Below are positions 10,501 through 55,059 of a stretch of 64,000 bases of DNA, one piece after another. Every line of letters begins with the position of its first letter. Position 1 is the stretch's first letter. The position numbers and the translations under genes are program-made. The notes beneath the pieces are model-generated. The model worked only from the letters and a program-made list of their open reading frames with translations. It ran no database searches and had not been told where the DNA came from. The stretch is from Adenophora triphylla var. japonica (Eukaryota > Streptophyta > Magnoliopsida > Asterales > Campanulaceae), in contig JAFEMH010000333.1 of NCBI GenBank assembly GCA_022495995.1, forward strand, positions 744,001 to 808,000, in the 5' to 3' direction.

Positions 10501-10520
10501 GCAGCAGTTCAAACTGCTGC
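10501..10520. repeat. Inverted repeat between antisense genes 1 and 2 of A
   Basis: GCAGCAGTTCAAACTGCTGC, 9-bp arms. It lies 26 bp upstream of the gene 2 dyad box. B has GCAGCAAC-tttg-GTTGCTGC at the same position (19774-19793), so arms and position are kept although the bases differ. It could be a protein-binding site or an RNA hairpin in the gene 1 3' end. Confidence 0.6.
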
Positions 10521-15074: not shown

Positions 15075-15148
15075 TATTTATAGGCAGTCTGGATAAGGCT
15101 AATGAAGCCGTGCGGCTAAGGACAGCGAGCTAATGCAGCCGTGCGGCA
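15075..15148 (-). promoter_or_regulatory. LTR promoter of B (3' LTR copy): TATA box with two dyad boxes
   Basis: TATAAATA on the minus strand (15082-15075). AGCCGTGCGGCT lies 23 nt upstream (15106-15117) and a second GCCGTGCGGC is at 15138-15147, 31 bp further. The same layout is at 31346-31419 in the other LTR. Confidence 0.7.
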
Positions 15149-15208
15149 TTATCCACAATGACTCAGCATTCTAGAACCATGCAAGGTGGCAAATTCTAGA
15201 ACCTTTCC

Positions 15209-15298
15209 TCCTAATTAAGAAAAACGTGTTTCTTAATTAGGAAGGATCCTCTTCAGCCCTAAATTAATTAAAAACAGTTCCGGAATGTTTCCGGAACA
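15209..15298. repeat. U3 inverted repeats of the B-family LTR
   Basis: Two close perfect palindromes: CTAATTAAGAAA...TTTCTTAATTAG with a short AACGTG loop, and GTTCCGGAA-TG-TTTCCGGAAC. Both are kept in the other B LTR and in the solo LTR (53549-53630). They may be binding sites or RNA hairpins in the U3 part. Confidence 0.6.
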
Positions 15299-15386
15299 CT
15301 AGGAAGGTCTGGGGAATTACCGGAAAACTTACCGAAATTGCCGGGAAATTTAACCGGAAGGCATGAGCCAGATTTGGGTACTTACA

Positions 15387-15424
15387 GAAGCCCCTCGGCA
15401 ACGTCACTTGCAAGGCGAGTGGGG
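15387..15424 (-). other. Polypurine tract and adjacent hairpin of B
   Basis: On the minus strand GCCGAGGGGCTTC directly precedes the LTR start TGTAAG, as expected for plus-strand priming. The GGGG can pair with CCCC (complement of 15421-15424) around an inner CACT/AGTG stem. The same layout is present in A, D and E. Confidence 0.7.
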
Positions 15425-15854: not shown

Positions 15855-16490
15855 GATCCTCGAGGGTTTTGACAATTAATGGAGGCTGTCACCTGAGAAA
15901 ACTGGAGCTTACGTCACTATCGAGAAGATAGAGGTAGCTAAAGTTGGATGACGTTATTTCTTTATGACGGAAATAACGAAGACTAGAGCTTACGGCGCTA
16001 TCTCTTTTTGACAGAGATAGAGGTAGCTAAAGCTAGAAGAACTTAAGTATACTTCACTATTCGTGATAGAGGTATCTTAAGTTAAGAGGAACTCAAGCAT
16101 ACGTCACTATTCGGGATAGAGGTAGCTTAAGTTGAGAGAAACTTGAGCGTACGTCACTATTCGGGATAGAGGTAGCTTAAGTTGAGAGAAACTTGAGCGT
16201 ACGTCACTATTCGGGATAGAGGTAGCTTAAGTTGAGAGAAACTTGAGCGTACGTCACTATTCGGGATAGAGGTGGCTTAAGTTGAGAGAAACTTGAGCGT
16301 ACGTCACTATTCGGGATAGAGGTAGCTTAAGTTAAGAGAACTTAGCATACGTCACTATTCGGGATAGAGGTAGCTTAAGTTGAGAGAAACTTGAGCGTAC
16401 GTCACTATTCGGGATAGAGGTAGCTTAAGTTGAGAGAAACTTGAGCATACGTCACTATTCGGGATAGAGGTAAGCTAAGTTTAGAGTTTT
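15855..16490 (-). repeat. Tandem array of about 50-bp units in B 3' untranslated region
   Basis: Regular copies of a unit containing CGTACGTCACTATTCGGGAT and AGAGGTAGCTTAAG run from about 16055 to 16475. Diverged copies lie upstream from 15890. F has a longer-unit relative (44925-46140). Tat/Ogre 3' regions are known to carry such arrays and to seed satellite repeats. Confidence 0.85.
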
Positions 16491-16684
16491 GACAATTCGG
16501 AGGTTGTCACCTAGCATTATCCCGTTATAACGGAATTAATGGAGCGGCGGGAAGAAAGCTTAATTGCTTAAGAGATAAGGGATATCTTACGAAAAAGATG
16601 TTATCTTGGTTAAAAGATAACGGAAATTGCATGCCCAAGTGGAAGGTCCGGGCGGGATTGTAATTTTCTACTCAGAGCGAATGA

Positions 16685-16755
16685 GGCCGCCCGGCATGAG
16701 ATGGAGAAAAAGGAGCCGTACGGCTAGAAGCCTGTTTTTTCCAGATTATTTAAAA
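16685..16755 (+). promoter_or_regulatory. Putative promoter of B antisense gene 1
   Basis: Two dyad boxes, GGCCGCCCGGCA (16685-16696) and AGCCGTACGGCT (16714-16725), are 29 bp apart. The second is 21 nt before TATTTAAAA (16747-16755). A GA-rich 5' untranslated region follows, with ATG at 16871. The layout copies the B LTR promoter, which uses the same GCCG..CGGC arms. Confidence 0.55.
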
Positions 16756-16870: not shown

Positions 16871-19470
16871 ATGGATCCGGAGGGCAATCCCATACCGAGG
16901 CAAGCAAGAAGAAACATCTCGGCGGCCGCTCGGAGGAGGAGAAAGGAGCTCGTGCGAACGGAAAGAAAGTATGACTTTCTTACGCCTCCGTCGGAGCTTT
17001 ACCCGGGGAGAAGAGAGCATAAATCAACGAACCCGCGATCGGTTGGGGTAAGCATTCTTAATTTGCTCAATTCCGTCGATTTTGATTGAATTTTGAATGA
17101 CTTAGGGCTTGACCCGAATTTAGAAATTTTCTAGGATTTTCCTAGGATTTTTGAATGATTTTGAGACATTGATGAATAACCTATGAGGCTAAGAATATGC
17201 AATGTGCAATTTGTTTGACAAAAATAATGGGAATGACCCACTTTTTTCTCGCAAATAATGTAAGAATGAAAAAATTGTCTAAAGTGAGACGGAGTTCTTG
17301 CATGTGCTAGAACTAGGTCAAAATTTTAAGAAAACATGATTTTGGAAGATGAAAAGGATTCATGCATGCCATTTTTGAAAGAATAATGCTTATGTGCAAA
17401 GAATTGTGAAAATTGTGATTTTGTGCTTTAGGAAAGCAATGGGACTTGACATGACACGTTTTAAGTGATGAAAGACGCTTTTTTGATGCAAATGATGCTA
17501 AAAAAAACTTTTGTGAATGCTTTTCTTTTTGAAAAACATGTGCACTTTTTGAATATATGCATGCTTTTGAAAATGATGAATGATTGACACACTTCTTTTT
17601 GTTGTGCTTGTCTACAGGAGAACAAGTCTAGAGGACCATCAGAGATTGCAGTCAAACTTTGGCAGAGGATGCCGGATTTCGAGAAGAATGAGGTGAACCC
17701 CAAGGGTTTGGTGAGGGCTACCGGCCTGGATTCATTCGTCGAGGCTATAGCAGGGGTGTTCAAATCACCTCTAAGAGCAAGGGCTTGATCCAGGCCCTTT
17801 CTGAGTTCTGGTGGGACAGTACACATAGCTTTCACCTGAGCTGGGGAGAGCTTACAGTGACTCCTGCCGATTTCACAGCTATCACTGGCCTACAGTTCAC
17901 CGGGAGGCCCGTGACTTGGAGAGACCACATTACAGCTGAGGAGTTCCAGGCTTTGGTTGGATTTGAGTTGATTCCCAAGGGACTGGGTATGGAGACACGG
18001 AATGTCGAGGTGGCAGTTCAGACTTGCATGCAGAACTTTGCTGCTAATGATGTGGCCCTTGGCCCAGTAGCTAGAGCCTTTGTGTGGTTGATGCTGTCAG
18101 TCACTATCTTCACTAATTCTGGGACGCTAGCTATGACTTGCCTTCTCGACTCTCTGGAGGATGTAGATGGGATAGAGATGGTCTCTTGGGGAGAGGCCGG
18201 ATTGGCGGAGTTGTTTTTCTCCTTGGACATGTACAGCCGGAACAAGGCTGCTTCGATGGACTGTTTCTCCTTTGCCCTTGAGGTAGTCTCCTTTCTTTTC
18301 TCTTTTCTTTTTCTGTCTTGAGACTTTTATGAGAGAGAGAATTACCTTTTTGATGTTTTGAACATGCAGGCCTGGTTTTGCGAGGTGATCGGGTTCTTCC
18401 CTTGGAACCAACAGAGCGATATCACCATCTTTCCTGCTATGGTTCGCTGGAGGGGAGATGCGAGGGATAAATTCACGGGGAAGACCCGGATCACCTTCGA
18501 CTACAAAATGGTGAGGCCGGTCATCAACAGGGATGGGCACGACGGAGTGGACTTCTACCCTTGGGGCAGGTATCCGGAGATCTTGCTGGGAGATGCCATT
18601 GAGGCGACTAGGCAGAGGAGGTGGCTCACTGGGCTGACATGTGATGTCATTTACTTGGGGGACCGTTTCTCGAGGCAGCATGGCCATGTCCCTCCATTGG
18701 ACGCCATTACTCCTCGGGATCCTCCAGCGGCACGGATGCTACGGCCCGAGGATTGGCCGAGAGGATGAGATTGCTAGGTACCGAGCGGGCGTGGGCTGCG
18801 AGAGAATGCCGACATGGACACCCCCTACGCTGTGTTTGTGGAGCGGCGCACGAGGACGCCACATAAGCTAGTGAAGGCGGCGGTCACTCGGGGATATGGG
18901 GAGGATGAGCCTGCGACCCGCCGATCCCTCCTGCGCATCTATCCTACGTGGTCCATGGAGTACCGAGGAGGTGAGGATACTGTCCCACGCTAGGGAGCCC
19001 CGGTACACCTTGCCGCTGACAAAGCCTGTAAGTATACTTTTAGGGTCTTTCCTTTTCGGCTTTTGATTTTTACGCTTTTTGCAATTTTACGAGATTTTTC
19101 GAGATTTTTCTCTTCTTTTTCTCGGAGTTCCGGCTCGCACCTATGACGGATTGGTCGGGCGAGAATAGGGGCTGGAAGGACATGTGCCGGTCCCTTCGAG
19201 GAAGGCGCTGCGCTTGAGGCGGCGGCGGATGCACGAGAGCCGGGCGCAAGAGACGGCATGTCGGGGCACGGCATCCTCTTCATCGGCCTCGGAGTACTCT
19301 TCCGGTGCCATGCCTCGGGGCGGGGACCCAACGCCGACATTCAGGGAGCGGGCGAGTATGGGCACGATAATGTCCATCTGTCTGATGTGAGCGACCAGGA
19401 GGACCTGATGAGGGAGGCTAGCATTTATGAGCTGAGTAGCGATGAGGAGGAGGAAGAATCGGAGGCCTAG
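16871..19470 (+). pseudogene. B antisense gene 1: plant mobile domain protein, frameshifted
   Basis: Exon 1 is 16871-17047 (MDPEGNPIPRQARR, 59 codons), intron 17048-17617 (GTAAGC...CTACAG), exon 2 17618-18282, intron 18283-18369 (GTAGTC...ATGCAG), exon 3 18370-19027, intron from 19028 (GTAAGT) to about 19127, and exon 4 to TAG 19468. All junctions are phase 0 and at the same places as in A. Exon 2 has the mobile-domain signature (HSFHLSWGELTVTPADFTAI, VSWGEAGLAELFFSLDMYSR). Exon 3 has VDFYPWGRYPEI and LTGLTCDVIYLGDRF. Exon 4 ends in an acidic tail. Disabled by a one-base shift near 17765 and further shifts from about 18770 on; the last acceptor is weak. Confidence 0.8.
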
Positions 19471-19773: not shown

Positions 19774-19793
19774 GCAGCAACTTTGGTTGCTGC
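19774..19793. repeat. Inverted repeat between the antisense genes of B
   Basis: GCAGCAAC-tttg-GTTGCTGC, 27 bp upstream of the first gene 2 dyad box. It is the positional counterpart of 10501-10520 in A, with changed but still complementary arms. Confidence 0.6.
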
Positions 19794-19820
19794 AGAATTT
19801 TTTCTGCAGAGGGCTAATGT

Positions 19821-19899
19821 AGCCGTGCGGACAGTCCCGAGGGTAAATAGGGCCGTGCGGCTCACGGTTCTGTACGAACTGGTTATTTTCTGAATAAAA
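19821..19899 (+). promoter_or_regulatory. Putative promoter of B antisense gene 2
   Basis: Boxes AGCCGTGCGGAC (19821-19832) and GGCCGTGCGGCT (19851-19862) are 30 bp apart. TATA-like TTATTTT begins 20 nt later (19883), with AATAAAAG at 19893-19900 as the alternative. ATG is at 20000. Same arms as the B LTR box. Confidence 0.5.
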
Positions 19900-19999
19900 G
19901 CAAGGCTTGGCCATTTCATTTCATTTTCAACTTAGACTTGTCCCAATTGTTCCCAGAGCACATTTTGGACCTAAAAGCACCACCTTTGGTCGTTTTGCG

Positions 20000-21586
20000 A
20001 TGGAGAAGCCTGTCAGATTGCAAAAAGGGGGAAACGAGACCGTTTTCTGTCCGATCTTCAATCTTGGGTGAGACACAACTTTCAATCTCATAGGGGGCTG
20101 CTTGATTCTTCCTTCAAGATCAAGTCTTTATGGCATTTGAGGGATCTCCCGCCCGATTGGGACCTTTTGAGAGCCGCAGCAAAGTTCTGGGACGTCCGGA
20201 GACATGTTTACTGCTTTTCTTATAACGAGATTGTCCCGACGCATGAAGACTTCCGAGCCTTGATTGGGGGTCCCGAGATTGAGGCTATATCTATTCCGCT
20301 GATCGGAGACGTGCCAGTGGCGGTAAAGCTTGCATCTTTTGCGAGATTCCTTTGGGAGAGGCCGAGAGGATGATGGTAGCCGGATAGGATTGACCTTTCG
20401 ATATCCGGGCGAGGTTTGGGTCTCCGAGATATGGCTGCGACCACGGTGGCTATGGACGCATTTATCCTTTGCGTATTCTGCTCTGTTCACTTCTTGAGTC
20501 CGTGGGGATCTGTCATAGTGGCCTCTTGGACATGGTTAGAGACTGCAAGGCTGGGAGGGATATTGTCCCGCTGGTTTTGGGAGAGACACTTCATGGGATT
20601 GACGGGATGGCTCGGGGAGACCATTTCATGAGATCCGGGAGTCCAGTGTGTTGACCTTATGGGCTGCGGGGAGAGGCTCGGGGCTTTGCCGGGGGCTTTG
20701 CCGACTCGGTGCCCTTGGGTGATTTCTCGGAGGGGTGCACCGAGGCAACGAGGACCGAGTAGGCCGGAGGCGACGATGGCTAGGCTATCCACTTCGGACA
20801 TCCGTTGGTGGATTCCTCATTGGAGGTTGCGGACCCGGGAGGATATTTCGGGAGTCCTATCTTTGTGAGGGTTCCGAGGATTCTTTGGTCATCCTTCTAC
20901 ATACCTGCTTAGTATCCGGGCGGTTTGGGGCTTTACGGGAGCCATTGAGCGATTGGGAGGACATCCGGACCATGGAGGTGATGCCATTGGATATGAGAGA
21001 TCCGGCCGGCTTCTCATTCTTCTCGAGGGCTTGGACATACACTGCTTTCCCACCCGGGGCTATCTTCGGGAGCGGGAAAAGCACCATCTTGACCACTGTC
21101 TACTTGGGGCGAGTACGAGAGGGAGATGGGAGCGACTCGGGTCATCTTGGAGGAGAGACGTCGAGCTTTATTGGGAGGCGGCTGCGACTCGAGTAGGACT
21201 TTGAGGGAGGCGAGGCTAAGGCGAGTCGCCATAACCGGTCAGTGACTTGGTCGGGGATATGGAGGCTCGGTACAAGAGGTTGTCCAGAGGTCGCTCCTTT
21301 GGCGAGGCTCGAGAGGGAGGAGGTGCGGACTCGTGCTCGGATAGAGAGAGCACTTATTGACACAGGTTTAGTGGAGGCTCCAGTAAGGATACCGGAGGGC
21401 GGGATGAGGGATACCGACATCATAGATAAAAAGAGGAAAAAGACGCGACGGGGCCGAGGAAAAGGGAAAAGACCAAAAGACTCGGCGAATGACGGCGACG
21501 ATGATCTTTTCTTAGGATTCCCTTATTGCCATTTTGCAAACACATTAGTTTATTTAGGCATTTTATTGTATTTTAGATCTTTGTAG
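20000..21586 (+). pseudogene. B antisense gene 2: DUF7745/mobile-domain-like protein, many frameshifts
   Basis: Starts MEKPVRLQKGGNET at 20000. A frameshift near 20050 leads to SLWHLRDLPPDWDLLRAAAK and HVYCFSYNEIVPTHEDFRAL (20068-20373). After further shifts come GRDIVPLVLGETLHGIDGMA (about 20540-20600), later pieces, and a C-terminus with KKRKKTRRGRGKGKR (about 21430-21475). Piece by piece it follows A antisense gene 2, including the basic tail. The number of shifts makes it clearly non-coding today. Confidence 0.8.
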
Positions 21587-29949: not shown

Positions 29950-31657
29950 TGTGAATGTGTGCCCAAATTTTGTTTTTTGTTGGATTCACGCGAGTTTGAA
30001 GACATCCGGTTTAATTTGAAAAACGGAGTCGCCACGCCATTTTGATTACCTCAAAACTTTGAAAAAAAGGTTTTATGGGTTCGGAGGTTAAGTTACCCCT
30101 TGGGAAGAACGTTTGGCGTTCACCCAAGGTGCCTTGCCGGAGCAAGTCTCCCATGATTTCATTAATCGTGCTTGCTTGCGTGCTTTCTTGTGTGCATGTG
30201 TTTGAAAATAAGGAGGGAATGTCCCAAGTCGTCTTCTGGACGTACAAACCATTTGTTGGTTGTCGCTCGGGATTTCTTGGAATTTATGTATTCGGGATTA
30301 TGATCCCGTCCTCATCTTGGACTTGTGATCATCACATTTTTTAGACCTTGGGACTTGCGTGATCGAGAGAATGAATCTCTTTGTGGTCAAAGATGAGGTT
30401 CTTTAGAAAAGGAGGGTCCTTAGCCCATAAATCCTACACTTTAAGATGGTCGAGCTTGTATAGATGCTTCATACTCATCTTAAGTGATAATCGGAGATAT
30501 AGGGTTCGAAGGTGTCCCTTTTCTAAAGAGATTATGAAACCTTTATGGAAGGAACGATGTAAAGATAGGATCTTTTACATCGGTCCGTTCCTAGGTTGCT
30601 AATGGGGGAATGGGGGAAATGTATGTAAAAATGACACTTTAATGAAAAGATGACATTTTTGGGTTGCAAATGATGCACTTAATTCAAAGAAATGATCTTT
30701 ATTGCAAATGATGCATAAAGATTTGATTTTTATGCAAATGATGCATTTTTGTTGAAGAAATTGGCATTCATTATGCAAATGATGCATAAAGATTGCATTT
30801 TGAAAAGCATATGATGCTAGTTTATGGTAAAGACGTGGTCTTTAAAGCAAATGATGCTTGGAAAAGGGATTTTGAATGCAAATGATGCATTTTGATTGAA
30901 AAGATTTGATTTTTATATGCAAAGGATGCATAAAGATGACATTTTTATTTGAAAATGGGGGTTTTAGGTGCAAAGGATGCACCTTTATGGGAAAAGACTA
31001 CATTTTTATGACAAATGATGTCTAATGCATGCAAAAGGGGAAGGGGGAATATGAAGATATGATCTTTAATCTACCAAGTCCCAAGCAATATAAAGGTAAT
31101 GCAATGAGCAATTTATAAAGCAATTAGGATGCGAGGTTAGGGCGTGCGAGGTTACCAATGGCTTCCTTCTTCTTCGGGCGGAGCTAGGAGGAGAGGTTGG
31201 TCTTGGATCTTCAAGGAGGAGGGAGGGAGCTTCTTGGCCTTCTTCTTCACCTTCTTGAGCTTCCAGCAGTATTCTTCACGTATTTGGAGTGTTTGTGGGT
31301 GATTTGTTGTGTTAATTGTGTGTTGAAATGGGTAGAGGAGGGCTCTATTTATAGGCAGTCTGGATAAGGCTAATGAAGCCGTGCGGCTAAGGACAGCGAG
31401 CTAATGCAGCCGTGCGGCATTATCCACAATGACTCAGCATTCTAGAACCATGCAAGGTGGCAAATTCTAGAACCTTTCCTCCTAATTAAGAAAAACGTGT
31501 TTCTTAATTAGGAAGGATCCTCTTCAGCCCTAAATTAATTAAAAACAGTTCCGGAATGTTTCCGGAACACTAGGAAGGTCTGGGGAATTACCGGAAAACT
31601 TACCGAAATTGCCGGGAAATTTAACCGGAAGGCATGAGCCAGATTTGGGTACTTACA
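29950..31657 (-). repeat. 5' LTR of element B
   Basis: 1708 bp, with proper TG...CA ends on the minus strand (TGTAAGTACCC ... CATTCACA). Differs from the 3' LTR at about 12 positions, nine of them transitions. The TATA box is at 31353-31346 and the dyad boxes at 31377-31388 and about 31408-31419. Confidence 0.95.
31346..31419 (-). promoter_or_regulatory. LTR promoter of B (5' LTR copy)
   Basis: TATAAATA (31353-31346) with AGCCGTGCGGCT 23 nt upstream (31377-31388) and GCCGTGCGGC 31 bp beyond. This copy would drive the element's genomic RNA. Confidence 0.7.
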
Positions 31658-31668
31658 GCGTGTTCCAT
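31658..31668 (-). pseudogene. First codons of A antisense gene 1, cut off by element B
   Basis: ATGGAACACGC on the minus strand. Removing B and one GCGTG copy joins it in frame to 13673 and gives an open first exon of 56 codons ending at the donor at 13516. The start context and length fit exon 1 of B gene 1. Confidence 0.7.
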
Positions 31669-31842
31669 TGCTAGAAAATCGAAGAAAATCGGAAGATTTC
31701 GAAGCTTTCTAGGCCAACAATGGCGGTTTTGACTCTCTCCCTCGTCTCTCTCTCGTGAAACTGGAAATTGGTGAAGAAGAAACCAAAAGGGCGGCGGCCC
31801 TCTTTTAAAACCAATCTGACTTCCATTCTGGTCCGCGCGGAT
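31669..31842 (-). promoter_or_regulatory. Putative promoter and 5' untranslated region of A antisense gene 1
   Basis: TCCGCGCGGA (31832-31841) precedes TTTTAAAA (31810-31803) by 21 nt on the minus strand. A GA-rich leader (GAGAGAGAGACGAGGGAGAG) then leads to ATG 31668. The box is identical to that in A's LTR (34741-34750), in a similar position relative to TATA. Confidence 0.6.
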
Positions 31843-31963: not shown

Positions 31964-33590
31964 AACGGCAGTCAAACGTAAGTCCGATTTCTCCGAGAAA
32001 GATAACGGAATCCCGTTTCTTTCATCAAAATCATCAACGGCAGTCAAACGTATGTCCGATTTCTCCGAGAAAGATAACGGAATCCCGTTTCTTTCATCAA
32101 AATCATCAACGGCAGTCAAACGGAAGTCCGATTTCTCCGAGAAAGATAACGGAATCCCATTTCTTTCATCAAAATCATCAACGGCAGTCAAACGTAAGTC
32201 CGACTTCTCCGAGAAAGATAACGGAATCCCGTTTCTTTCATCAAAATCATCAACGGCAGTAAAACGTAAGTCCGATTTCTCCGAGAAAGATAACGGAATC
32301 CCGTTTCTTTCATCAAAATCATCAACGGCAGTCAAACGTAAGTCCGATTTCTCCGAGAAAGATAACGGAATCCCGTCTCTTTCATCAAAATCATCAACGG
32401 CAGTCAAACGTAAGTCCGATTTCTCCGAGAAAGATAACGGAATCCCGTTCCTTTCATCAAAATCGTCAACGGCAGTCAAACGTAAGTCCGATTTCTCCGA
32501 GAAAGATAACGGAATCCCGTTTCTTTCATCAAAATCATTAACGGCAGTCAAACGTAAGTCCGATTTCTCCGAGAAAGATAACGGAATCCCGTCTCTTTCA
32601 TCAAAATCATCAACGGCAGTCAAACGTAAGTCCGATTTCTCCGAGAAAGATAACGGAATCCCGTTTCTTTCATCAAAATCATCAACGGCAGTCAAACGTA
32701 AGTCCGATTTCTCCGAGAAAGATAACGGAATCCCGTCTCTTTCATCAAAATCGTCAACGGCAGTAAAACGTAAGTCCGATTTCTCCGAGAAAGATAACGG
32801 AATCCCGTTCCTTTCATCAAAATCGTCAACGGCAGTCAAACGTAAGTCCGATTTCTACGAGAAAGATAACGGAATCTCGTTTCTTTCATCAAAATCGTCA
32901 ATGGCAGTCAAACGTAAGTCCGATTTCTCCGAGAAAGATAACGGAATCCCGTCTCTTTCATCAAAATCGTCAACGGCAGTCAAACGTAAGTCCGATTTCT
33001 TCGAGAAAGATAACGGAATCCCGTCTCTTTCATCAAAATCATCAACGGCAGTCAAACGTAAGTCCGATTTCTCAGAGAAAGATAACGAAATCCCGTCTCT
33101 TTCATCAAAATCATCAACGGCAGTCAAACGTAAGTCCGATTTCTCCGAGAAAGATAACGGAATCCCGTTCCTTTCATCAAAATCGTCAACGGCAGTCAAA
33201 CGTAAGTCCGATTTCTCCGAGAAAGATAACGGAATCCCGTTTCTTTCATCAAAATCATCAACGGCAGTCAAACGTAAGTCCGATTTCTCCGAGAAAGATA
33301 ACGGAATCCCGTTCCTTTCATCAAAATCGTCAACGGCAGTCAAACGTAAGTCCGATTTCTCCAAGAAAGATAACGGAATCCCGTTTCTTTCATCAAAATC
33401 GTCAACAGCAGTCAAAAGTAAGTCCGATTTCTCCGAGAAAGATAACGGAATCCCGTTCCTTTCATCAAAATCGTCAACGGCAGTCAAACGTAAGTCCGAT
33501 TTCTCCGAGAAAGATAACGGAATCCCGTTTCTTTCATCAAAATCGTCAACAGCAGTAAAATATAAGTCCGATTTCCCCAGCAAAAGCTAA
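31964..33590 (+). repeat. Tandem array of 72-bp units in A 3' untranslated region
   Basis: About 22.5 copies, highly uniform, of a unit containing GTAAGTCCGATTTCTCCGAG, AAAGATAACGGAATCCCG and TTTCATCAAAATCATCAACG. As 72 is a multiple of 3 and the unit has no stop, both strands read open for hundreds of codons (for example SDFSEKDNGIPFLSSKS repeats). I treat this as a by-product. Arrays at this place are typical of Tat/Ogre elements. The number of copies could be mis-assembled. Confidence 0.93.
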
Positions 33591-34455: not shown

Positions 34456-36188
34456 TGTAAGTGCTCCAATTTGAGTTGTTAGTATTTTCGTTAGAAAATT
34501 AACAAAAGTCTTAACATTCCTAACATTTCTAACTATTCCTAACTTTTCTAACAAAGTAAGGGTAAAGTAGGCATTGCTATTTCAAGATAAACCAAGAAAA
34601 GCATCTCAAAAAGAAAAGAAATTGGAAAAATCCGAATCTGGTAAGCTGAAAAACAGCAACCAGTTTGAATTTTCAAAAGATATTCCTTGTGTCCAAAGCC
34701 TGGAGCTGCATTTAATGAACAGTGCACGCTTCCACTTTGGTCCGCGCGGATGAAAATGGCACTTTCAGAAGCCTATAAATTAAGCCCTTCAGTCTCAGAA
34801 ATAAAAAGAGAGAACACAATTCACAGCTGCACATTGGCGAAAATACTTGAGAAAATAGTGAGAATTCCCTTGAATTGTCACTCTTTTCTCTTGATTATCT
34901 TCCCAAATCTCACTCACTCACTCTCAAATTCAAAGCCTCAAACACTCTTACATTCAAGCCTAAAACTCAAAAATCAAAAGAAGATAGGTATAACCTCCTT
35001 CTCCCAACCCTGAATCTCTTTCATACATGCATGCATCTCAAACTTTGAAGATGTAATTTGTTCATTTCTTGCCTTAGATCCAAGAGGATCACCATGGAAG
35101 TTCATCTCCATGGATGATCCTCTAAAAGGATCAACATTCTTTTCAAAGTGTCTTTACTTACTTGCAAGCACATTTTCAAAACCCTAAAAATCATTTTCAT
35201 ACATCAAATCTTGATTTCAAAGGATAAAATTCCCCTTCCCAAGCAAATGAAATGCTTAAGTCCTAATGTACCCCAAGGATAGCTTGATATAGTAGATCAC
35301 CACTAAAATATTTAGTGATCACTATCAAATATTAGGTAAATGGGGACAAGCATGGATGCCAAACCCCCTTTTAATCATGTTTTTCTTCAAGAGAAAGTTG
35401 CTGTCCAGTAGCCTTTCTCTAAGACCTCTGTCCATGGTCTAATTTTTTGGACATACAGAAACTTGTAATTTAGTGTTGACTACAAAATACTTTTTGTAGC
35501 CAACATCAAGAGCTTTCCAGACATATTTTTACTTTATTTTTTGCGTGAGTAAAACTCCCTTTTTCAAATTTTATTTTAAAAGTCAGTTCCTCAGTCTCTG
35601 GAAATCCAGATTTCATATCTGAGATTTCCAGAAGGTTTTGGTCCACCAAATCATCTCCAAATGGGAATGTTCTTTTACATAAACCTTATTTTAGGTGTTT
35701 TGAACAACTTTCATTCTCGGACTTTCCCCATATTTTGAAGTTTTAAAGCCCTTAAACCCATTTGAAAATCAAGTGTCCACTGCCTTTTTCATTCTGGCAG
35801 AATTGGTTTTCAACTTCAAAAGGTCTTTTGAGTACCAAAACTCAACCCTAAAATCACACCAAAAATCATGGGATTTGTTCAAAGTCTTACAAAGAGTTCC
35901 CAATTTTTAGTTTTCTCAGTTTCAACTTATTTTGGCCAAAGGAACACACACACACACACAAATGGTTTTTAAGCTTGGAAGACTCGTTTTACGAGGCATT
36001 CCGGGTGAACACTAACGTTCTTCCCGGCGTGTAACGTGACCTCCGAACCCAAATCTCTAATCTCGGGCATTTTTCAAAGTTTTGGCCCTTAAAATAAAAA
36101 TGGCGTGGCGACTCCGTATTTTTTTCGATTGAATTTCAAAGAAAAGGAAAATACCAATCTTTCGGAAAAATGGACCAACATCGTTACA
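34456..36188 (+). repeat. 3' LTR of element A
   Basis: 1733 bp from TGTAAGTGCTCC to ...TCGTTACA. Ends and position after the polypurine tract are clear. The last 551 bp match the partial 5' LTR. Contains the promoter at 34741-34780. Confidence 0.93.
34741..34780 (+). promoter_or_regulatory. LTR promoter of A
   Basis: Dyad box TCCGCGCGGA (34741-34750), then 23 nt, then TATAAAT (34774-34780). The same box is upstream of both A antisense genes. Confidence 0.65.
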
Positions 36189-36590: not shown

Positions 36591-38589
36591 ACACAAAAAA
36601 AAATCATACAGTCAACCTCGTGGGTTCTAGTACTTTTCTCGCTCAATCACGTCCTCCTCGGATATTGTAATTAAGTCTTCAATTTTCTGTACATAAGGCT
36701 TCTTTCTTTTCTTGCTAGACTTGAGACATTATTTAGCACCCCACATTACATTTAATGAAATGGTTTTGTTCTGTGTGATCACTTGCATTGCTCAACAAAT
36801 AACTTCCCAAATGATTAATGCTTTGATTAATTAGTGTGAGAAAGTCAATCGATAGCTCCACATACACCTTACCATACCCCACACAAAGGCCTCCATCAGG
36901 CCATACACTTTCCAAAACATGTCCCCACCATCACCTTGACCAAGTCAACGACGGCGGCAACATCAAAGGACAACAAAAGGTCACTCAGCATTAAAAGATT
37001 GACCCCATGTCGACAACAACCTAGGGGCTTGACTTCGCCCTCGTGCGCATCAAGAAAGCTCAAGCAGGGGCTTGCCTTCGCCCTCATATGCTTCAAAAAA
37101 AAAGGAAAAAAATCTCAAGCAGAAGCTTCAAAAAAAGAGAAAAAGCTCAAGCAGGAGCTTGAAAAAAAAAAAAAGGAGCCAAGGACCCAGCACCGCCAGT
37201 CAGAAGGTCAATAGAAGGAGGCGAAAGCAAAAACGCATCATAAGTCCTTAAGCGATATTCAAATTCTTCCTCTCCCCGAGAAAGTAACGATCAAGAAGCA
37301 ATGGATTCATTGAAACTGCCGTCAAATACGACTTGTCAAGGAATCATCTCAAGGCCCGTGCCTCATCATTCAACTTTCCGAGCCTTTTCGTCAAAGGCCG
37401 TGCAAATATTCATGCCCTGGCCCCAAAGCCAATCACGGTTCAACCCCGAACTACGTCGACCTGAGCTCCTTGTCTTAAGGGGAACGTAGGCAACCAAAAA
37501 TGGTCTGGTCATAAACACATGCAAATCCACAAATCCGGTCTCATCAATGACCTCTCCTATACACAAACCTTCTTTCACACCAGACCAAATTCGATCCTTA
37601 ATACCGGTTGACTTTCTCCTCATGATTAAGCAAGCATATCAAGTTTTATTGTTGAATAACCCGAACATCAACAAAGAGTTTTAAGCAAACAAGTGATCAT
37701 TGTGAATAAATCATGTTTTCAAATGTCTCGACAAGTCTTCTTTTTCTACAAAATAGGAAAATAGAGCTAAACACTGATTTTCTGTCAGCAAGGGCTTCCA
37801 TACACTTTTACAAGCTTTTCAGTGCTCATACTCTCTCAAAAGAGTCAAACCCAAGAGAATTTCTTTTGTGCCTACATCAAATAAGGCATTCACACAAAAG
37901 GGGACCCGTTCCCACCTTTTTAAAAATAAATACGCCCTTGCGAGTGTACATTATGAGTCATTTCTCCCACAAAAGAGGGTCGAACTACGCAAACCTGAGC
38001 CCCTCAGTTCGAGGGGAACATAGGCATCCTTCATTGGTTCGGTCTAAGGAATACACAAAATTCCAAAAATTGATGCCACCAAGGCAGGGTATGGAATGAC
38101 CTTCTGAAACACCGAGTATCCATTCATTGTCATTGCATACACATTAATTGTTAAATGCTTTACGTTGTCTTTTAGCATGTTGTGAGTTTGAGAGTAGACC
38201 GTGCTTGAACTCATCAAGAAGTGTTTTAACTGTGATGATTTGTGATTTACTTTTAAAGCTTTGTCCAGACGCAAAATCTCTTGCTTGCTTCTTGTCTGAG
38301 CCTTGGTGGCATCAATTTTTGGAATTTTGTGTATTCCTTAGACCGAACACTCTCCCTACATCGAAGGAGCACCACAGGAGGTAAAGCGGAATACTTTCAT
38401 ACCCTCAGAAAATACAGAAAGGCATCAGGATCTGTCATGCAGAAGGAGGCTGCCTCCATAGTGGTAATGCCTTTCTAGCCCAGCAAAGGCTCCTGCCTCA
38501 TCCCGAACTGCCTGGAAACAAGCAAAGAAGACCAAGACAAACACGAAACTCTGACAACATAGGAACCTTCCTGACAGGCCCTCCTATTC
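36591..38589 (+). other. D region between pol remnant and antisense gene relics, with two H2 copies
   Basis: Noncoding, homologous to the reverse complement of F at about 49100-50430. H2 copies lie at 37448-37510 (inner stem CUCCUU/AAGGGG) and 37981-38047 (CCCCU/AGGGG, outer stem with one mismatch). A stretch at 37020-37190 repeats CTCAAGCAGGAGCTT-like units. No gene seen. Confidence 0.65.
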
Positions 38590-38925
38590 TCAATTCCCCA
38601 ATGAGGAACCCACCAACGGAGGTGATGCGTGCCAAGTCAAACCATCCACCTCTCCCAAGTGGACTAATCTATATCCAAGACAAGAGGTCGTTGAGCAAAC
38701 GTCCACGGACCAAGAGATGTCAGAAGCACAGGCACTGCTTGAAGCCTCTCTCGCAACCACAAAGTGACTAAAGCAGGGGCTTCCCCCACACATGAACCGG
38801 TCCCCCATCGCTAGGCGATCCATACCGTGAAAAGTCTCCCCATAAACTAAGGGAACGATGTACTCACCGGCCCGGCAATGGCCTACCACATCCAGCAAAC
38901 ACGTCCCAAGGTACATCACTCCCAC
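38590..38925 (-). pseudogene. Relic of antisense gene 2 in D
   Basis: Minus strand reads LLDVVGHCRAGEYIVPLVYG then ETFHGMDRLAMGDRFMCGGS, matching A gene 2 (LLDVVVHCRLGRDVVPLILG, ETFHALDRLATGRRYMHGGS). Only this central part is recognisable. Confidence 0.8.
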
Positions 38926-42008: not shown

Positions 42009-43204
42009 TGTAAGTACCCCAATCTTGATCGATATCCATCCAAGCATACGGAAAAACTAAGGACGAACTTCCGGAGGTCATAACTCCTTCATGCGAACTC
42101 CGATTGAGACGTGCCATATATGGTTTGAAAGCTCTCGACGAGAACTAGCTCGACATAACAAAAATAATAAAATAGTCAGCTTGTATCATGGTCTGTACGG
42201 ACCATTTTGCATCCAGAGGCCTTTCTAGGATAAAACAAGGCAAAAGAACTTCATAGGAATTTTGGAAAATATGGAAGTGGTAGGTTGTGTCGTGCGACAC
42301 ACTATGCCAGGAGACATAATTATTACAAAATCCCCTTAAAGTCTACAATATTCCCTTAAATCCAGGAAAAGCAAAAAACTGGTAATGGCTTACAGTGCCG
42401 TGCGACAAACCTTGCAAGAATCTGGACCCTATAAATAGAGACCTCCCCCTCTCATTTTTCACACACAATCCTCTTCTCCTCTCTCCCTCAGCCTTCAGGC
42501 TCCCTCTCTAAGGCCCTTCGGGGCAATCCCGGTCCCTTTCGGTTCCCTCTGAAGCATTCTGAGGCCCCTCGTGGTACTCCGAAGCTCTGTCGAGCGCTCC
42601 CGTGATGCTCCCGAGCTGCCCCGAGGCACTCCCGAGGCATTCTGAAGCCTTGCCAATCCATCCCAAAAATCCATCCCGAGGCATTCTGATCCATCCCGAG
42701 GTGTCTCGACCCTTTCCGAGCTCAACCGACGATTCCAAACGCACGCCAGAACTCTGCCCGAGCACAATCGACAATTCCAACGCACGTCGGAATCTGCCCG
42801 AGCACAACCAACGATCCTAACGCACGCCGAAACTATGCCCGAGTACACACCTGACAATCTCGAGGCACGCCAAAGCTCTATCTGCAGACAACCAACACAT
42901 CCCAAAGCAACCCCGGTCCATCCCTGAACACTATTCAACACTCAAACACTATTCCCCAGTGGAAGACAGACACGAACCAACATTGGTAAGGCTACCTTCC
43001 TACACTATTTCAATACATTTCAATACGCAGTGTACAATGTAGACATTAGATATAGCATGCATTTTTAAAAGCACATGCACACACACACAATTTTTAAAGA
43101 AAGAAGGTGTACCGAAAGACTCGTTTTTACGAGGCAACTCGGGTGAGCTCTAACATTCTCTTCCCGAGGTGTAACTCAACCTCCGAAATCAAAAATCTCA
43201 TCGC
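42009..43204 (+). repeat. 3' LTR of D, truncated
   Basis: Starts TGTAAGTACCCCAATC. Related to the E LTR (59221 on) through a C-rich region with CCGAGGCATTCTGA repeats (42490-42920) and GAAAGACTCGTTTTTACGAG. It breaks off at about 43204, where the E LTR continues for more than 100 bp. Confidence 0.8.
42190..42438 (+). promoter_or_regulatory. LTR promoter of D with three dyad boxes
   Basis: GGTCTGTACGGACC (42190-42203), GTGTCGTGCGACAC (42287-42300) and TGCCGTGCGACA (42396-42407). The last is 22 nt before TATAAATAG (42430-42438). Confidence 0.6.
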
Positions 43205-44826
43205 TTTGAGGCCAAGTCACCTCGTTGGAAGACACCAAATTTATGAAAAACAGAGTTGCCACGCCATTTTGATTTATCCTCAAAACTTTTAAAAAAAAGG
43301 AAAAGGGTTCAGAGGTTAAGTTGCTCCTTGGGAAGAACGTTTGGCGTTCACCCAAGAAGCCTTGCAAATGCAAGTCTTCCAAGGTCCAAAATTTGTGCTT
43401 GTGTGTGATTTAAGAAAGAGAAATGATATGCCAAGTCTTTATCCAAACATATGAACCATTTTAAGAAGGTTTTAGTTCAAAATGCCTTGGGCTTTGATGT
43501 TATTAGGGATTTGATTCCCTACTCATTTTAGACTTATGATCATCATTATGTGACCTATCTACCCTCCCATTAGACTAATCAACCAATCTAGGCGTAGGAG
43601 CCTTGGTATGTTTTAATCTAACTTTCCTTGGGGATTTTAGACAAATGTGATCATAGAACTCATTTTTAAGTCCAAGAATGAAACATTAGAAAAAGAATGA
43701 ATCTTTGGCCATCAATCCTACATCTTGAGACAATGGTGATCATAGGGACATTTTGGTGTGTTTGTCTCAAGTGATCCTAGGAGATTTTGGGACCAAGAAT
43801 CATTGATTTCTAAAAGGGACAAAGATTATAGCATTTTATAATGAGATTAGTGTAAAGATTGAGTCTTTACACCAACCTTCACTATAGAAATGCTCAAGAA
43901 TCATGGGACTAGAGAAATGAGACATAAAGGTTGGATTTTTATATTCATCCTATGTCTTTGATGCCTTAGTTGGCTTTTTAGACAATCTTTGGAGAAAGAT
44001 TCCAACTTTGAAAAGGGGAAATAATGTTAATGTAAAGACTTGATTTTTAATGTGAAAATACAAGAAGTATCAATAATCTAAGAACATAATGTAAAAGGGA
44101 TGGATCTTCATGGCTTTTCCTATGTCCTTAATACCTCAATAGGTGGACAATCCTAGGAAAAGCTAGATCTAGGGAAGGGGAGAACATTTAGTAAATAAAG
44201 ATTGCATTTTTATACATGAATGTAAAGGGGGTTCACATCCTCATTTGGTAGATCATCCCTAGAACAAGCCACTTGTGGAATCTTGTTCATCATAGGGAGA
44301 GGATCTCCATGAGTCATTTATGTAGGGGAGTGGGAAATATGGATCTACGTTGCTAAAGATTGAAACTTTATGATATAATAGAGAGTAATCAACAAGTAGC
44401 AAGAGAATAAGAGTGTATAATAGTAGATTAGAGGTGAGGGAAGGAGAGATTACCAATATTGGTGTTTCTCTATCTTCCAAGGGAGGTTTTCTTAGGAAAT
44501 ATCTATTAGGAATAGATTAGGTTGGGATTAGTGTATGAGAGAGAGTGGTTTTCTATGTCTAGGAGAGTATATTTTGAGCTTAGATTTCTGCAGAGTAAAT
44601 TTGCTGTGGAAATTCTCTAAGAAAATGGGTAGAGGAGGCCTCTATTTATAGGCTTCTAGTGTGCTACTAATGAAGCCGCACGGCATGACCATGCGCTAAA
44701 AGAAGCCAACCGACCAAATCTTCCGTCGCGTCAGCTTATTTCTGGAAACATGCAAGGTGGCAGATTGGAACCTTCTTTCCAACAAGGTCCTATCCAGAAT
44801 TTTTATTCCTGATAGGTCCTTCCTTG
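43205..44826 (-). repeat. 3' LTR of F, truncated, B-related
   Basis: Plus-strand view: GGAAGACACCAAATT, GAGTTGCCACGCCATTTTGA and GGGAAGAACGTTTGGCGTTC, then a TATA box and dyad box, parallel to the B LTR but strongly diverged. The U3 start is missing; the left end may be cut as well. Confidence 0.75.
44643..44685 (-). promoter_or_regulatory. LTR promoter of F
   Basis: TATAAATA on the minus strand (44650-44643), then 23 nt to AGCCGCACGGCA (44674-44685), the same arms as B. Confidence 0.6.
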
Positions 44827-44924
44827 CTCGGGGTTTTGACGGTTAATGGAGGAGTCACCTAATTGGTTTGAACATTTGGAGAAATCACCTAATTGATTTG
44901 AACATTTGGAGGGATCACCTAAGA

Positions 44925-46140
44925 AACTAAAGCTTACGGCGCTATCTCTTTTGAAGGAGATAGAGGGAGCTAAAGCTGGAAACTAAAGCTTACGGCTCTA
45001 TCTCTTCCTAAGGAGATAGAATGAGCTAAATCTGGATACTAAAGCTTACGGCGCTACCTCCTTCTAAGGAGATAGAGGGAGCTAAAGCTGGATACTAAAG
45101 TTTTCGGAGCTATCTCCTTCTAAGGAGATAGAGGGAGCTAAAGATGGATCTAAAGCTTACGGCGCTATCTCCTTCTAAGGAGATAGAGGGAGCTAAAGTT
45201 GGATACTAAAGCTTACGGCGCTATCTCCTTCAAAGGAGATAAAGGGAGCTAAAGCTGGATACTAAATCTTACGGTGCTATCTCCTTCTAAGGAGATAGAG
45301 GGAGCTAAAGCTGGAAACTAAAGCTTACGATGCTATCTCCTTCTAAGGAGATAGAGGGAGCTAAAGCTGGAAACTAAAGCTTATGGCGCTATCTCCTTCT
45401 AAGGAGATAGAGGGAACTAAAGCTGGATACTAAAGCTTACGGCGCTATCTCCTTCTAAGGAGATAGAGGGAGCTAAAGCTGGATACTAAAGCTTACGGCG
45501 CTATCTCCTTCCAAGGAGATTAAGGGAGCTAAAGCTGGATACTAAAACTTACGGCTCTATGTCCTTCTAAGGAGATAGAGGGAGCTAAAGCTGGATACTA
45601 AAGCTTACGATGCTATCTCCTTCTAAGGAGATAGAGGGAGCTAAAGTTGGATACTAAAGCTTACAGAGCAATCTCCTTCTAAGGAGATAGAAGGAGCTAA
45701 AGCTGAAAACCAAAGCTTACGGCGTTATCTCCTTCTAAGGAGATAGAGGGAGCTAAAGCTGAAAATTAAAGCTTATGGCGCTATCTCCTTCTAAGGAGAT
45801 AGAGGGAGCTAAAGCTGGAAACTAAAGCTTACGCCGCTATCTCCTTCAAAGAAGATAGAGGGAGCTAAAGGTAGATACTAAAGCTTATGGCGCTATCTCC
45901 TTCTAAGGAGATAGAGGAAGCTAAAGCTGGAAACTAAAGCTTACGGCGCTATCTCCTTCTAAGGAGATAGAAGGAGATAAAGGCGGAAATTAAATCTTAC
46001 GGAGCTATCTCTTTTGAGATAGAGGGAGCTGAAGTTGGATACTAAAGCTTACGGCGCTATCTATTTTAAGATAGAGGGAGCTAAAGCTGGATAATAAAGC
46101 TTATGGTGCTATCTCTTTTGAGGGAGATAGAGGGAGCTAA
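44925..46140 (-). repeat. Tandem array of about 56-bp units in F
   Basis: About 21 copies of a unit with ACTAAAGCTTACGGCGCTAT, CTCCTTCTAAGGAGATAGAG and GGAGCTAAAGCTGG. Each unit contains the palindrome CTATCTCCTTctAAGGAGATAG. Diverged from, but alignable in parts to, the B array (GATAGAGGTAGCTTAAG). Confidence 0.9.
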
Positions 46141-46145
46141 ATATA

Positions 46146-52106: not shown

Positions 52107-53719
52107 TGTGAATGTGGTGCCCCAATTTTTGGTGTTGGATTCACGCGAGTTTGAAGACATCCGAGTTATTTGAAAAACGGAGTCGCCACGCCATTTTGAT
52201 TACCTCAAAACTTTGAAAAAAAGGTTTTTACTTGGGTTCGGAGGTTAAGTTACCCCTTGGGAAGAACGTTTGGCGTTCACCCAAAGTGCCTTGCCGGAGC
52301 AAGTCTCCCAAGATTTCATTAATCGTGCTTGCTTGCGTGCTTTCTTTGTGTGCATGTGTTTGAGAGTAAAAGGGGGAAATGTCCCAAGTTATCTTCCGGA
52401 CGTACAAACCATTTGTTGGTTGTCGCTCGGGATTCCTTGGAATTTTATGTATTCGGGATTATGATCCCGTCCTCATCTTGTGACTTGTGATCATCGCATT
52501 TTAACCTCGGGACCCTCGGGACTTGCGTGATCGAGAGAATGACTCTCTTTTGGTCAAAGATGAGGTTCTTTAGGAAGGAATGTCCTTAGCCCATCAATCC
52601 TACGCTTTAAGACGGTCGAGCTCGTATAGAGGCTTCATACTCATTCTTAAGCGATAATCGGAGATATAGGGTTCAAGGTTATCCTTTTCCTAAAGAAATC
52701 ATGAACCTTTAATGGAAGGAACGATGCAAAGATGAGAACTTTTACACCGGTCTGTTCCAAGGTTGGGGAAAGGGGGAATGCATGATGAAAATGACTCTTT
52801 AATGAAAAGATGACATTTTTGATTTTAGCAAATGATGCTTTTTGATTTAAAGAAAGGATCTTTATTGCAAGTGATGCGTAAAGATAGGATTTTTATGCAA
52901 ATGATGCATTGAAAAAGGGGTTTTGATGCAAAGGATGCATTTTTATTAAAAAAGATTTGATCTTTATATGCAAATGATGCATAAAGATAACATTTTTATT
53001 GGAAAATGGGGGTTTTAGGTGCAAAGGATGCACCTTTATGAAAAAGACTACATTTTATGACAAATGAGGTCTTAATGTATGCAAAAGGGAAAGGGGGTGA
53101 TAAAGATGTGATCTTTATGAATAAATGCCAAGTCCCAAGCAAGATATATGAATGCAATGAGCAAGTACATCAATTAAAATGCAAGGTTAGGGCGTGCGAG
53201 GTTACCAATCGTTTCCTTCGCTTCTTCGGACGGAGCTAGGAGGAGAGGTTCGTCTTGGGTCTTTAAGGAGGAGGGAGATGGCTTCTTGAGCTTCTTCTTC
53301 GCCTTCTTGAGCCTTCAAGGGTGTTCTTCACGTCTGATTGTGTTTGAGTGTATTGTATCTCTATTGTGTGTCTTGTTGTTGTTGTGAAATGGGTAGAGGA
53401 GGGCTCTATTTATAGGCAGTCTGGATAAGGCTAATGAAGCCGTGCGGTCAGAGGCAGCGAGCTAATGCAGCCGTGCGGGCTTATCCATTGTGACTCAGCA
53501 TTCTAGAACCATGCAAGGTGGCATTATTCTAGAACCTTCCCTCCTAATTAAGAAAAACGTGTTTCTTAATTAGGAAGGATTCCCTTCAGCCTTTATTTAA
53601 TAAAAAACAGTTCCGGAATGTTTCCGGAACACTAGGAAGGTCTGGGGAATTACCGGAAAACTTACCGAAAATGTCGGGAAAATTAACCGGAAGGCATGAG
53701 CCAGATTTGGGTACTTACA
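52107..53719 (-). mobile_element. Solo LTR of the B family inside C integrase
   Basis: 1613 bp, plus-strand TGTGAATGTGG ... GGGTACTTACA, flanked by the direct repeat GCGGC (52102-52106 and 53720-53724). No internal region remains, so it is a solo LTR left by recombination between two LTRs. More diverged from the B LTRs than these are from each other. It has the U3 palindromes, TATA and two dyad boxes. Confidence 0.95.
53407..53480 (-). promoter_or_regulatory. Promoter of the solo LTR
   Basis: TATAAATA (53414-53407), 23 nt, AGCCGTGCGGTC (53438-53449), and AGCCGTGCGGGC (53469-53480) 31 bp further. The cores are kept although one outer base of each dyad has changed. Confidence 0.6.
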
Positions 53720-53724
53720 GCGGC

Positions 53725-55059
53725 TTCCACCCACTTTGTGAAGTAATCTACCGCAACCAAAATTTATGAGTGTCCATTGCTCCCGAGTGGAGTTATCTTC
53801 CCGATGAAATCAATCCCCCACGTTGCGAAGGTCCAAGGAGTTGTCATACAATATAGGTCATGAGGAGGGATGTGGTTTAGATTGGAGAATCGCTGGCATT
53901 TGTCACAAGTCCGCACAAATTGGATACAATCAGTCTCCATAGTGATCCAGAAGTAGCCCAGTCTGATAATGCTATGCATAAGGGATCGAGCATTCATATG
54001 AGGTCCGCAGGTGCCATTGTGAACATCTTCCATTACTCTTTGAGCTTTTTCTTTGATGATATAGAGCAGGAGAGGGAAACCTTCCCTTTTCTTCCATAAC
54101 TCATTGCCAAGTATGACGTATTGAGCCGATGGCCTTTTCAAGGCTTGCAGGCTCTTGGCATGAATACCTTTTAGGTCTCCTTCTTTATCAACGGGGAAAG
54201 ATGCTTCACCATGCTTGAGATATTGGAAGATCTGGTTGTACCATGGCTCATTGAAGGTTTCGGTCTCAATTTCACAACAATATGCAGGATTTTCTCGCCT
54301 ACCGACCCTGAACGGTTTGATTGACTTTCCTTCTGGGATTTCTACCAAAGAGGCCAGAGTAGCTAGGGCATCGGCAAATCTGTTCTTATCTCGTGGCAGG
54401 AATTGGAATGACACTTCCTTGAACTGGCCGACGAGCTCTGCAATGTAAGCATGATACCTCTGGAGACACGGATCTGAGGTTTTCCATCTGTTGGCGGCTT
54501 GATTTATTATCAGTTGGGAATCACCAAACACTTCCAACTCATCCACATGTCGCTCTAGGGCAGCCTCAAGACCGGCTATGCAAGCTTCATATTCGGCTGC
54601 ATTGTTGGTAACCGAGAAGTTTAGCTTGATAGCTATGGGGGTATGCATGTCATTCGGATCTACCAGTACCATCTCGATGTCGTTACCTCTTTTGTTCGTC
54701 GCGCTGTCAAAGAATAACTGCCACCGATTGCCATTTTCTACGACAAAAATCCCCTCATCTGAAAACTGGAGATCTGGTCCTCGGGCTTCTGTACTGGGGG
54801 AATTAGCCAATTGATCTGCCAAAGCCTGTCCCTTGATTGATTTCCGAATCACATATTTAATATCAAATTCAGCTAGGAAGAAGGTCCATTTGGCCAATCT
54901 GGTGGAAATGTTGCCTCTGTCACCCTGAAACAGGTATCTAATCGGGTCCATTTGGAGACCAGATGTACTGTGGGATAGCATATAGTGCTTTAGCTTTCCA
55001 ACTACCCAAACCAGAGCTACGCATGTCTTCTCGAGGGCAGAATAATTCAACTCGCTACC
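53725..55059 (-). pseudogene. pol: RNase H, archaeal-type RNase H and integrase N-terminus of C
   Basis: In the RT frame after one stop. First RNase H end: NYSALEKTCVALVWVVGKLK and IKGQALADQLA. Second RNase H: LFFDSATNKRG, NNAAEYEACIAGLEAALERH, LEVFGDSQLIINQ and NRFADALATLASL, giving the D-E-D-D set. Integrase zinc domain: H...H with VHNGTCGPHMNARS and CDKCQRFSNLNHIPPHD, then WGIDFIGKITPLGSNGHS and a stop at 53764, shortly before the solo LTR. A complete second RNase H is diagnostic for Tat. Confidence 0.9.

Follow-up and report, generated by a model that had tools for sequence, protein, structure and literature searches.

The window (the whole 64,000-nucleotide stretch analysed) consists of nested plant-type Ty3/gypsy repeats. 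Element A runs on the forward strand, from the tail of its 5′ LTR (1–553) to the end of its 3′ LTR near 36188, and encloses element B on the reverse strand, whose LTRs (13681–15387 and 29952–31658) are 99.4% identical. B has apparently inserted just behind the start codon of A antisense gene 1 (31658–31668), and GCGTGTT is present at both B ends. A solo LTR of the B family occupies 52109–53729. The LTRs of elements D and E are homologous to each other, and the F LTR is related to that of B. An element at ∼ 53.7–56.7 kb (−) carries a reverse transcriptase (RT) ORF (55060–56658, −) with RT_RNaseH_2 at its end and an ORF (53764–54981, −) with RVT_3 and an integrase zinc domain. This order, RT and RNase H, a second RNase H-like domain and then integrase, is the Tat/Ogre arrangement, since that clade is marked by an additional RNase H placed after the first and before integrase (PMC6317226). 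RT ahead of RNase H/integrase is at the same time the Ty3/gypsy order, and B contains relatives of both ORFs in that order; B aligns at 37% to the RVT_3/integrase ORF. In A, whose RT similarity is partial, no second RNase H was seen between RNase H and integrase. An A ORF (5929–7206, +) between gag and the RT-like stretch encodes a G-patch domain, which is known from other plant gypsy elements (PMC9289625). Long tandem arrays lie at 31964–33575 (72-bp × 22), 16016–16486 (50-bp × 9.5), 44926–46141 (56-bp × 22) and 57712–58195 (41-bp × 12).

In A as in B, the interval from pol to the 3′ LTR holds two antisense genes. A gene 1 (11865–12914, −) encodes a plant mobile domain (PMD; PF10536, E 3e-23), as does the PMD part of B gene 1 (17692–18318, +; E 1.6e-21). 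The first two tandem arrays listed above separate the gene 1 promoter from the 3′ LTR in A and B. A gene 2 (9036–10337, −) is an open 433-aa ORF with DUF7745 (E 2e-11) and a weak PMD match (E 0.0026) that falls below the PMD cutoff. The first part of B gene 2 (19975–20370, +) is DUF7745-like at E 0.004, below cutoff, and the B gene 2 region (20.0–21.2 kb) is 34–36% identical to A gene 2 (tblastn). An extra PMD ORF occurs in 57% of Ogre (PMC6317226), and this Tat/Ogre trait is seen here as the PMD in gene 1 of A and B and DUF7745 in A gene 2. The similarity of A gene 2 to P0001 extends beyond the stop at 9036 (8886–9036, −), so the gene may be shortened at its end. B gene 2 looks broken near its start (20000–20370, +), because the apparent start codon is out of frame with the similarity that follows. 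D keeps a gene 2 relic (38361–38901, −) from which the 5′ part and the promoter are missing, and gene 1 and gene 2 queries within the window detected no antisense gene alongside E or F.

Protein searches returned at least four relatives of gene 2 (among the best 7999 candidates scored) and three of gene 1. Viral contigs gave no relatives with A gene 1, A gene 2 or RT as query, with RT or gene 2 alignments, or with the Tat RT DNA pattern, and prokaryote contigs gave none with the gene 2 alignment. A PDB sequence search found no match for gene 2; for gene 1 it listed a MutS2 endonuclease (E 0.07) and a dynein light chain (E 0.64), neither of which is credible. AlphaFold2 models built from 5-row alignments (pLDDT 33 for A gene 2, 39 for A gene 1) are unusable.

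The feature under study is a short CG-NN-CG dyad (referred to as the box), which when perfect has the 10-bp form xyCGNNCGy′x′. All eleven sites named in the original prediction exist, 0–2 bases from where they had been placed, and its view that one kind of dyad stands at one spacing in LTR and antisense promoters is borne out by gaps of 22–24 and 21–24 bp respectively. The A LTR box (34741–34750, +; TCCGCGCGGA) has its TATA box (TATAAAT, 34774–34780, +) 23 bp downstream. In the B 3′ LTR the proximal box (15107–15116, −; GCCGCACGGC) is 24 bp from the TATA at 15082 (−) and a second box (15138–15147, −) lies 31 bp upstream of it; the B 5′ LTR has its proximal box at 31378–31387 (−), 24 bp from the TATA at 31353 (−), and its second at 31409–31418 (−). 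The solo LTR has two boxes, each with one mismatch: the proximal box (53439–53448, −; ACCGCACGGC), 24 bp from the TATA at 53414 (−), and the second (53470–53479, −; CCCGCACGGC). The F LTR box (44675–44684, −; GCCGTGCGGC) is 24 bp from the TATA at 44650 (−). A box was also found at the place predicted in the D LTR (42397–42406, +; GCCGTGCGAC), 23 bp from the TATA at 42430, but it has one mismatch and the perfect D box lies 108 bp further upstream (42289–42298, +), 131 bp from the TATA, as the core 10-mer of GTGTCGTGCGACAC, itself a perfect dyad. E has three boxes: a proximal one (59654–59663, +; the core 10-mer of GGTCCGTACGGACC) 22 bp from the TATA at 59686, a distal one (59547–59556, +) 129 bp from it, and an outer one (59516–59525, +) 31 bp above the distal box and 160 bp from the TATA, the last two both the 14-mer GGTCCGTACGGACC.

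Allowing one mismatch, a dyad thus stands 22–24 bp before all seven LTR TATA boxes, in five element types. When TATA sites were defined as TATAAA or TATATA with runs collapsed (n = 43 in the window), a dyad with no more than one mismatch was found at a gap of 18–26 bp in 7 of 43, all of them LTR sites, and in none of the other 36; random positions carry such a dyad at that gap in 0.94% of cases. The LTR promoters are mutually homologous (P 0.02 or less in 14 of 15 pairs; A versus E, P 0.12), and we therefore treat the seven sites as one conserved feature and not as seven independent events.

The same box occurs 21–24 bp before an AT-rich TATA-like sequence at all four antisense promoters of A and B that could be inspected, although none of these TATA-like sequences is strong and each was chosen with the box already known. 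The A gene 1 box (31832–31841, −; TCCGCGCGGA) is 21 bp from TTTTAAAA, and the A gene 2 box (10464–10473, −; TTCGCGCGGA, one mismatch) is 24 bp from TTTAAT. B gene 1 has a proximal box (16715–16724, +; GCCGTACGGC) 24 bp from TTTAAAA, a second (16686–16695, +; GCCGCCCGGC) 29 bp above it and an imperfect third (16647–16656, +) 39 bp further up. B gene 2 has a proximal box (19852–19861, +; GCCGTGCGGC) 22 bp from TATTTT and a second (19822–19831, +; GCCGTGCGGA, one mismatch) 30 bp above. Dinucleotide shuffles place such a box in 0.15–1.25% of cases per promoter, with ten promoters tried. A TATA-free control, in which perfect dyads were counted within 250 bp above the ATG, gave one for A gene 1 (shuffle P 0.03), none for A gene 2 (P 1), two for B gene 1 (P 0.0015) and one for B gene 2 (P 0.02); A gene 2 scores zero because its box has one mismatch.

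The gene 2 promoters of A and B are homologous (P below 1/200). They also carry another dyad, GCAGCAGTTTGAACTGCTGC in A (10501–10520, −) and GCAGCAACTTTGGTTGCTGC in B (19774–19793, +), 28–29 bp above the (first) box of gene 2. The A and B versions of this dyad are distinguished by two arm pairs, each altered in both arms.

The whole window holds 134 CGNNCG cores and 17 perfect dyads, compared with a mean of 7.4 (SD 2.6, maximum 17) in 300 dinucleotide shuffles of 1-kb blocks. That excess is modest when taken alone; the location of the dyads is striking, and we reject simple chance as their source. Retrotransposon promoters have 14 of the 17 perfect dyads upstream of them, or 12 of 15 once the duplicate B 5′ LTR is set aside; the remaining three dyads are found at 1973, 25355 and 63894. 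Among the CGNNCG cores, 13 of 21 in eleven 150-bp promoter windows form perfect dyads, compared with 4 of the 113 located elsewhere (Fisher P 9.5e-10), a comparison that counts the copies of one family separately and has the E outer box among the four elsewhere.

The arms of the boxes are symmetric outside the core. With promoter-window cores counted irrespective of their arms, complementarity at the two pairs flanking the core reaches 81% and 71% among the 21 cores, as against 20% and 25% among the 113 cores elsewhere. Re-dealing the right arms among 19 distinct boxes gave P 0.006 for the outer pair and P 0.0025 for both pairs together. The inner pair (P 0.29) is uninformative because it is nearly always C-G, and the next three pairs gave 0.56, 0.17 and 0.48, so that the outer pair alone reaches significance when pairs are taken singly. 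A second line of evidence comes from the homologous LTRs of D and E, whose distal boxes (GTGTCG-TG-CGACAC in D, GGTCCG-TA-CGGACC in E) differ in three arm pairs, and in every one of these both partners have changed. Such symmetric changes point to a symmetric, dimeric reader. The D proximal box is asymmetric and has no symmetric change against the E proximal box. As judged from these arm comparisons, symmetry is a constrained property of the boxes. The three E boxes have one common 14-bp dyad and the two D boxes resemble each other, which suggests that boxes change together within an element, possibly by copying.

Arms and box number appear to follow the element, a conclusion that the sequences support for A and B, where alone both kinds of promoter are present. 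Compared with the proximal LTR box, the antisense boxes match at 10 and 9 of 10 positions in A and at 9 and 10 of 10 in B, whereas comparisons between A and B give 6, 7, 7 and 6 of 10. The claim that all three A promoters have the same arms must be amended in one respect, since A gene 2 has TTCGCGCGGA and not TCCGCGCGGA. With four antisense boxes in two elements, the label-permutation chance of this concordance is 1 in 6. At its LTR, gene 1 and gene 2 promoters B carries at least two boxes, 29–31 bp apart, and A has one at each. The predicted second box 29–31 bp away is present in the B LTRs, the solo LTR, B gene 1, B gene 2 and the outer pair of E. These pairs also agree with a spacing of three helical turns; the third B gene 1 box, at 39 bp or 3.7 turns, is off whole turns.

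Our preferred reading, to which we give slightly less than even weight, is that the boxes may be the common site of a dimeric regulator, probably one of the element's own antisense proteins, that would co-activate transcription of the genomic RNA and of the antisense genes. A homodimer would occupy the CG-NN-CG dyad 21–24 bp above the TATA or TATA-like sequence, and its binding on one face of the DNA would fit the symmetric sites, the two-sided arm changes and the roughly three-turn spacing of double boxes. The box lies upstream of the TATA and not over it, which makes activation or anti-silencing a more likely mode than steric repression. The same regulator would act on promoters of both strands and raise genomic RNA and antisense genes together. 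Because arms and box number are common within an element and differ between elements, the specificity of the reader would have evolved with its element, and an element-encoded source is more likely than a host one. VANC proteins and their motifs are reported to co-evolve in VANDAL transposons (PMC5735166).

Of the antisense products, the PMD protein is the candidate regulator on grounds of gene content, of Arabidopsis PMD mutants and of the VANC analogy. In mutants of the Arabidopsis PMD genes MAIN and MAIL1, many of the genes with lowered expression have a common promoter motif (the DOWN motif, for example CATGCAGTTT in the MORC1 promoter), and the authors leave open whether the PMD complex contacts chromatin (PMC7156037, PMC9899485). 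An exact copy of the MORC1 instance, the only one tried, is present on neither strand of the window; the DOWN motif is a different sequence and we reject it as the box. Taken further, the preferred reading becomes a self-contained two-strand circuit, in which an antisense PMD dimer would read a private, co-evolving operator and drive its own gene, the sister gene and the LTR; this fuller version we regard as rather doubtful. The imperfect boxes of A gene 2 and of the D proximal site count against the preferred reading, as do the boxes of E and F, for which no antisense gene was detected in the window. Overall the original interpretation is partly supported. An RNA hairpin is disfavoured by reasoning, since the 2-base spacer would not suffice for a loop without opening of the inner pairs.

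Host transcription factors are a strong rival and a serious possibility. One or several such factors would bind the box at every promoter, the arms would reflect different factors or drift in a tolerant consensus, and the antisense proteins would not be binders at all. Plant LTRs often rely on host factors, frequently stress-related ones, and the boxes of E and F, with no antisense gene visible in the window, fit this explanation. We compared the 20 boxes with cores that we take to be typical of host factors. The BZR-type core CGTG(T/C)G occurs in 11 of them (B, solo, D, F and B gene 2), SPL-type GTAC in four (E and the B gene 1 proximal box) and CAMTA-type CGCG in three (A). Each element could accordingly use a different host factor, since different cores occur in the boxes of different elements. 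None of the three cores is found in all 20 boxes, however, and two B gene 1 boxes fit none of them. The LOB-domain target GCGGCG (PMC10118128) is found in none of the 20 boxes taken with three bases on either side. The CGG–CCG boxes of Sireviruses mainly recovered stress-factor sites among known plant sites (PMC2829016), which speaks for a host reader. A single factor would not predict that arms and box number follow the element.

It is improbable that the boxes are merely CpG anchors, that is, methylation switches or sites of methyl-sensitive factors whose symmetry is a by-product of selection for CpG-rich sequence. Each box does contain two CpGs, mostly in CCG/CGG trinucleotides, and Sirevirus boxes form CpG islands (PMC2829016). 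The F LTR stretch (43224–44850) has kept both box CpGs at a CpG observed/expected of 0.26, and in the 200 bp above the TATA the boxes hold 4 of 4 CpGs in D and 6 of 7 in E. The corresponding counts are only 2 of 5 in A, 4 of 7 in B, 4 of 6 in the solo LTR and 2 of 9 in F, so the boxes do not monopolize the CpGs. CpG anchoring leaves the symmetric non-CpG arms, the arm covariation and the fixed gap unexplained.

Common descent of the promoters was addressed by comparing their flanks with the boxes masked (200 single-base shuffles; 45 pairs in two orientations, i.e. 90 comparisons, with P uncorrected). In the direction of the promoter, the masked B LTR is not similar to B gene 1 (P 0.36) or B gene 2 (P 0.25), and the B boxes are therefore unlikely to be mere inherited promoter sequence. 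In reverse orientation the B LTR resembles B gene 2 (P 0.04), and B gene 1 compared with B gene 2 gave P 0.08 forward and 0.02 reverse. The masked A LTR resembles A gene 1 (P below 1/200) and, weakly, A gene 2 (P 0.04 forward, 0.01 reverse). Given the similar flanks of the A LTR with both A genes and of the B LTR with B gene 2 in reverse, partial sequence exchange is possible. Promoter homology as the sole reason for the boxes holds among LTRs and was not seen between the B LTR and the B antisense promoters in promoter direction; on this sequence comparison, box sharing through common promoter descent appears unlikely for B and may apply to A. A longer one-sided flank, CTAATGNAGCCG, is common to the B LTR, the F LTR and the second box of B gene 2 (15098–15116, 31369–31387, 44666–44684 and 19813–19831), the last being flipped relative to its promoter; such a flank could reflect either binding to a half-site or earlier copying. 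The idea that short promoter pieces were simply copied within each element by duplication or gene conversion, without a common regulator, draws on this flank, which those sites share together with the rest of the core, and on the somewhat similar flanks of the A LTR and A gene 1, but we consider it very unlikely, as copying alone would not repeatedly set the box 21–24 bp from a TATA-like sequence and the masked B promoters are unlike in promoter direction.

If the two-strand circuit is real, it would parallel retroviral transactivators in plants and would give retrotransposon PMD genes their first function. HBZ (HTLV-type), which lies in a retrovirus, unlike the plant elements studied here, acts via host bZIP partners, and we know of no common operator box in that system. 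It resembles the present case in being an antisense retroelement gene, with a product that is nuclear in the case of HBZ (PMC11963269).

Comparable known genes are the antisense accessory genes of Tat-clade retrotransposons, namely Grande gene23, the Retand TRP28 ORFs and PMD ORFs, which likewise lie after pol and ahead of the 3′ LTR (PMC11963269, PMC7264820, PMC6317226, PMC9289625). The purpose of Tat-clade antisense accessory genes is described as not known (PMC11963269, PMC9289625), although a regulatory role has been proposed; gene23 of Grande has its own antisense promoter and encodes a nuclear protein (PMC7264820, PMC11963269). For the antisense proteins of Retand, which are TRP28 proteins and not PMD/DUF7745 as here, Vicient (2025) predicted DNA binding and suggested regulation (PMC11963269). 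The accessible text of these papers (PMC11963269, PMC7264820, PMC6317226, PMC9289625) describes no cis element common to LTR and antisense gene, and the accessible part of the open-licence PMC literature yielded no CCG-NN-CGG box common to LTR and antisense-gene promoters. A common, element-specific box ahead of both the LTR and the antisense genes narrows the loosely defined ‘regulatory role’ to a single short site per element, whose binding by the encoded proteins can be assayed.

The proposed logic resembles that of VANC and VANDAL, where an element-encoded protein recognizes a short motif in the non-coding parts of its own element, and the motif diverges between related elements and changes jointly within one (PMC5735166). 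The boxes likewise differ between elements yet are common within them, in two elements. VANDAL is a DNA transposon, its motifs are 8–9-mers in one orientation and at high density, and VANC binding and demethylation were shown experimentally (PMC5735166); for the boxes here, binding is a prediction from sequence. If the two-strand circuit holds, element-private control circuits may be a wider strategy.

The closest published analogue that we found is the repeated motif (RM) box of Sireviruses, a CGG–CCG palindrome (Bousios et al. 2010; PMC2829016). In both cases dyads with a CG-rich core stand above the LTR TATA and above an internal gene (env in Sireviruses), have element-specific arms and leave few bases between them (PMC2829016); here a palindrome is found above 7 of 7 LTR TATA boxes and at 4 of 4 antisense promoters that could be inspected. 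The Sirevirus authors likewise name no single factor that binds the box, as far as the available text of that paper goes (PMC2829016). The two systems differ in superfamily, core polarity, copy number and accessory gene. Sireviruses are Ty1/copia, whereas the elements here are Ty3/gypsy by the order of RT and RNase H/integrase; the RM core is CGG..CCG, here CCG-NN-CGG or CG-NN-CG with other arms; the internal gene is a sense env there and antisense PMD genes here (PMC2829016). RM boxes are clustered at 8–32 copies per element, in contrast to 1–3 per promoter here with one at a fixed 21–24 bp (PMC2829016). Against the Sirevirus minimum of eight in the internal region plus 3′ LTR, B, the fullest element, has seven (two in the 3′ LTR and five at antisense promoters) and A has three. 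If the preferred reading is right, the dyad-box logic of Sireviruses would reach into a second superfamily.
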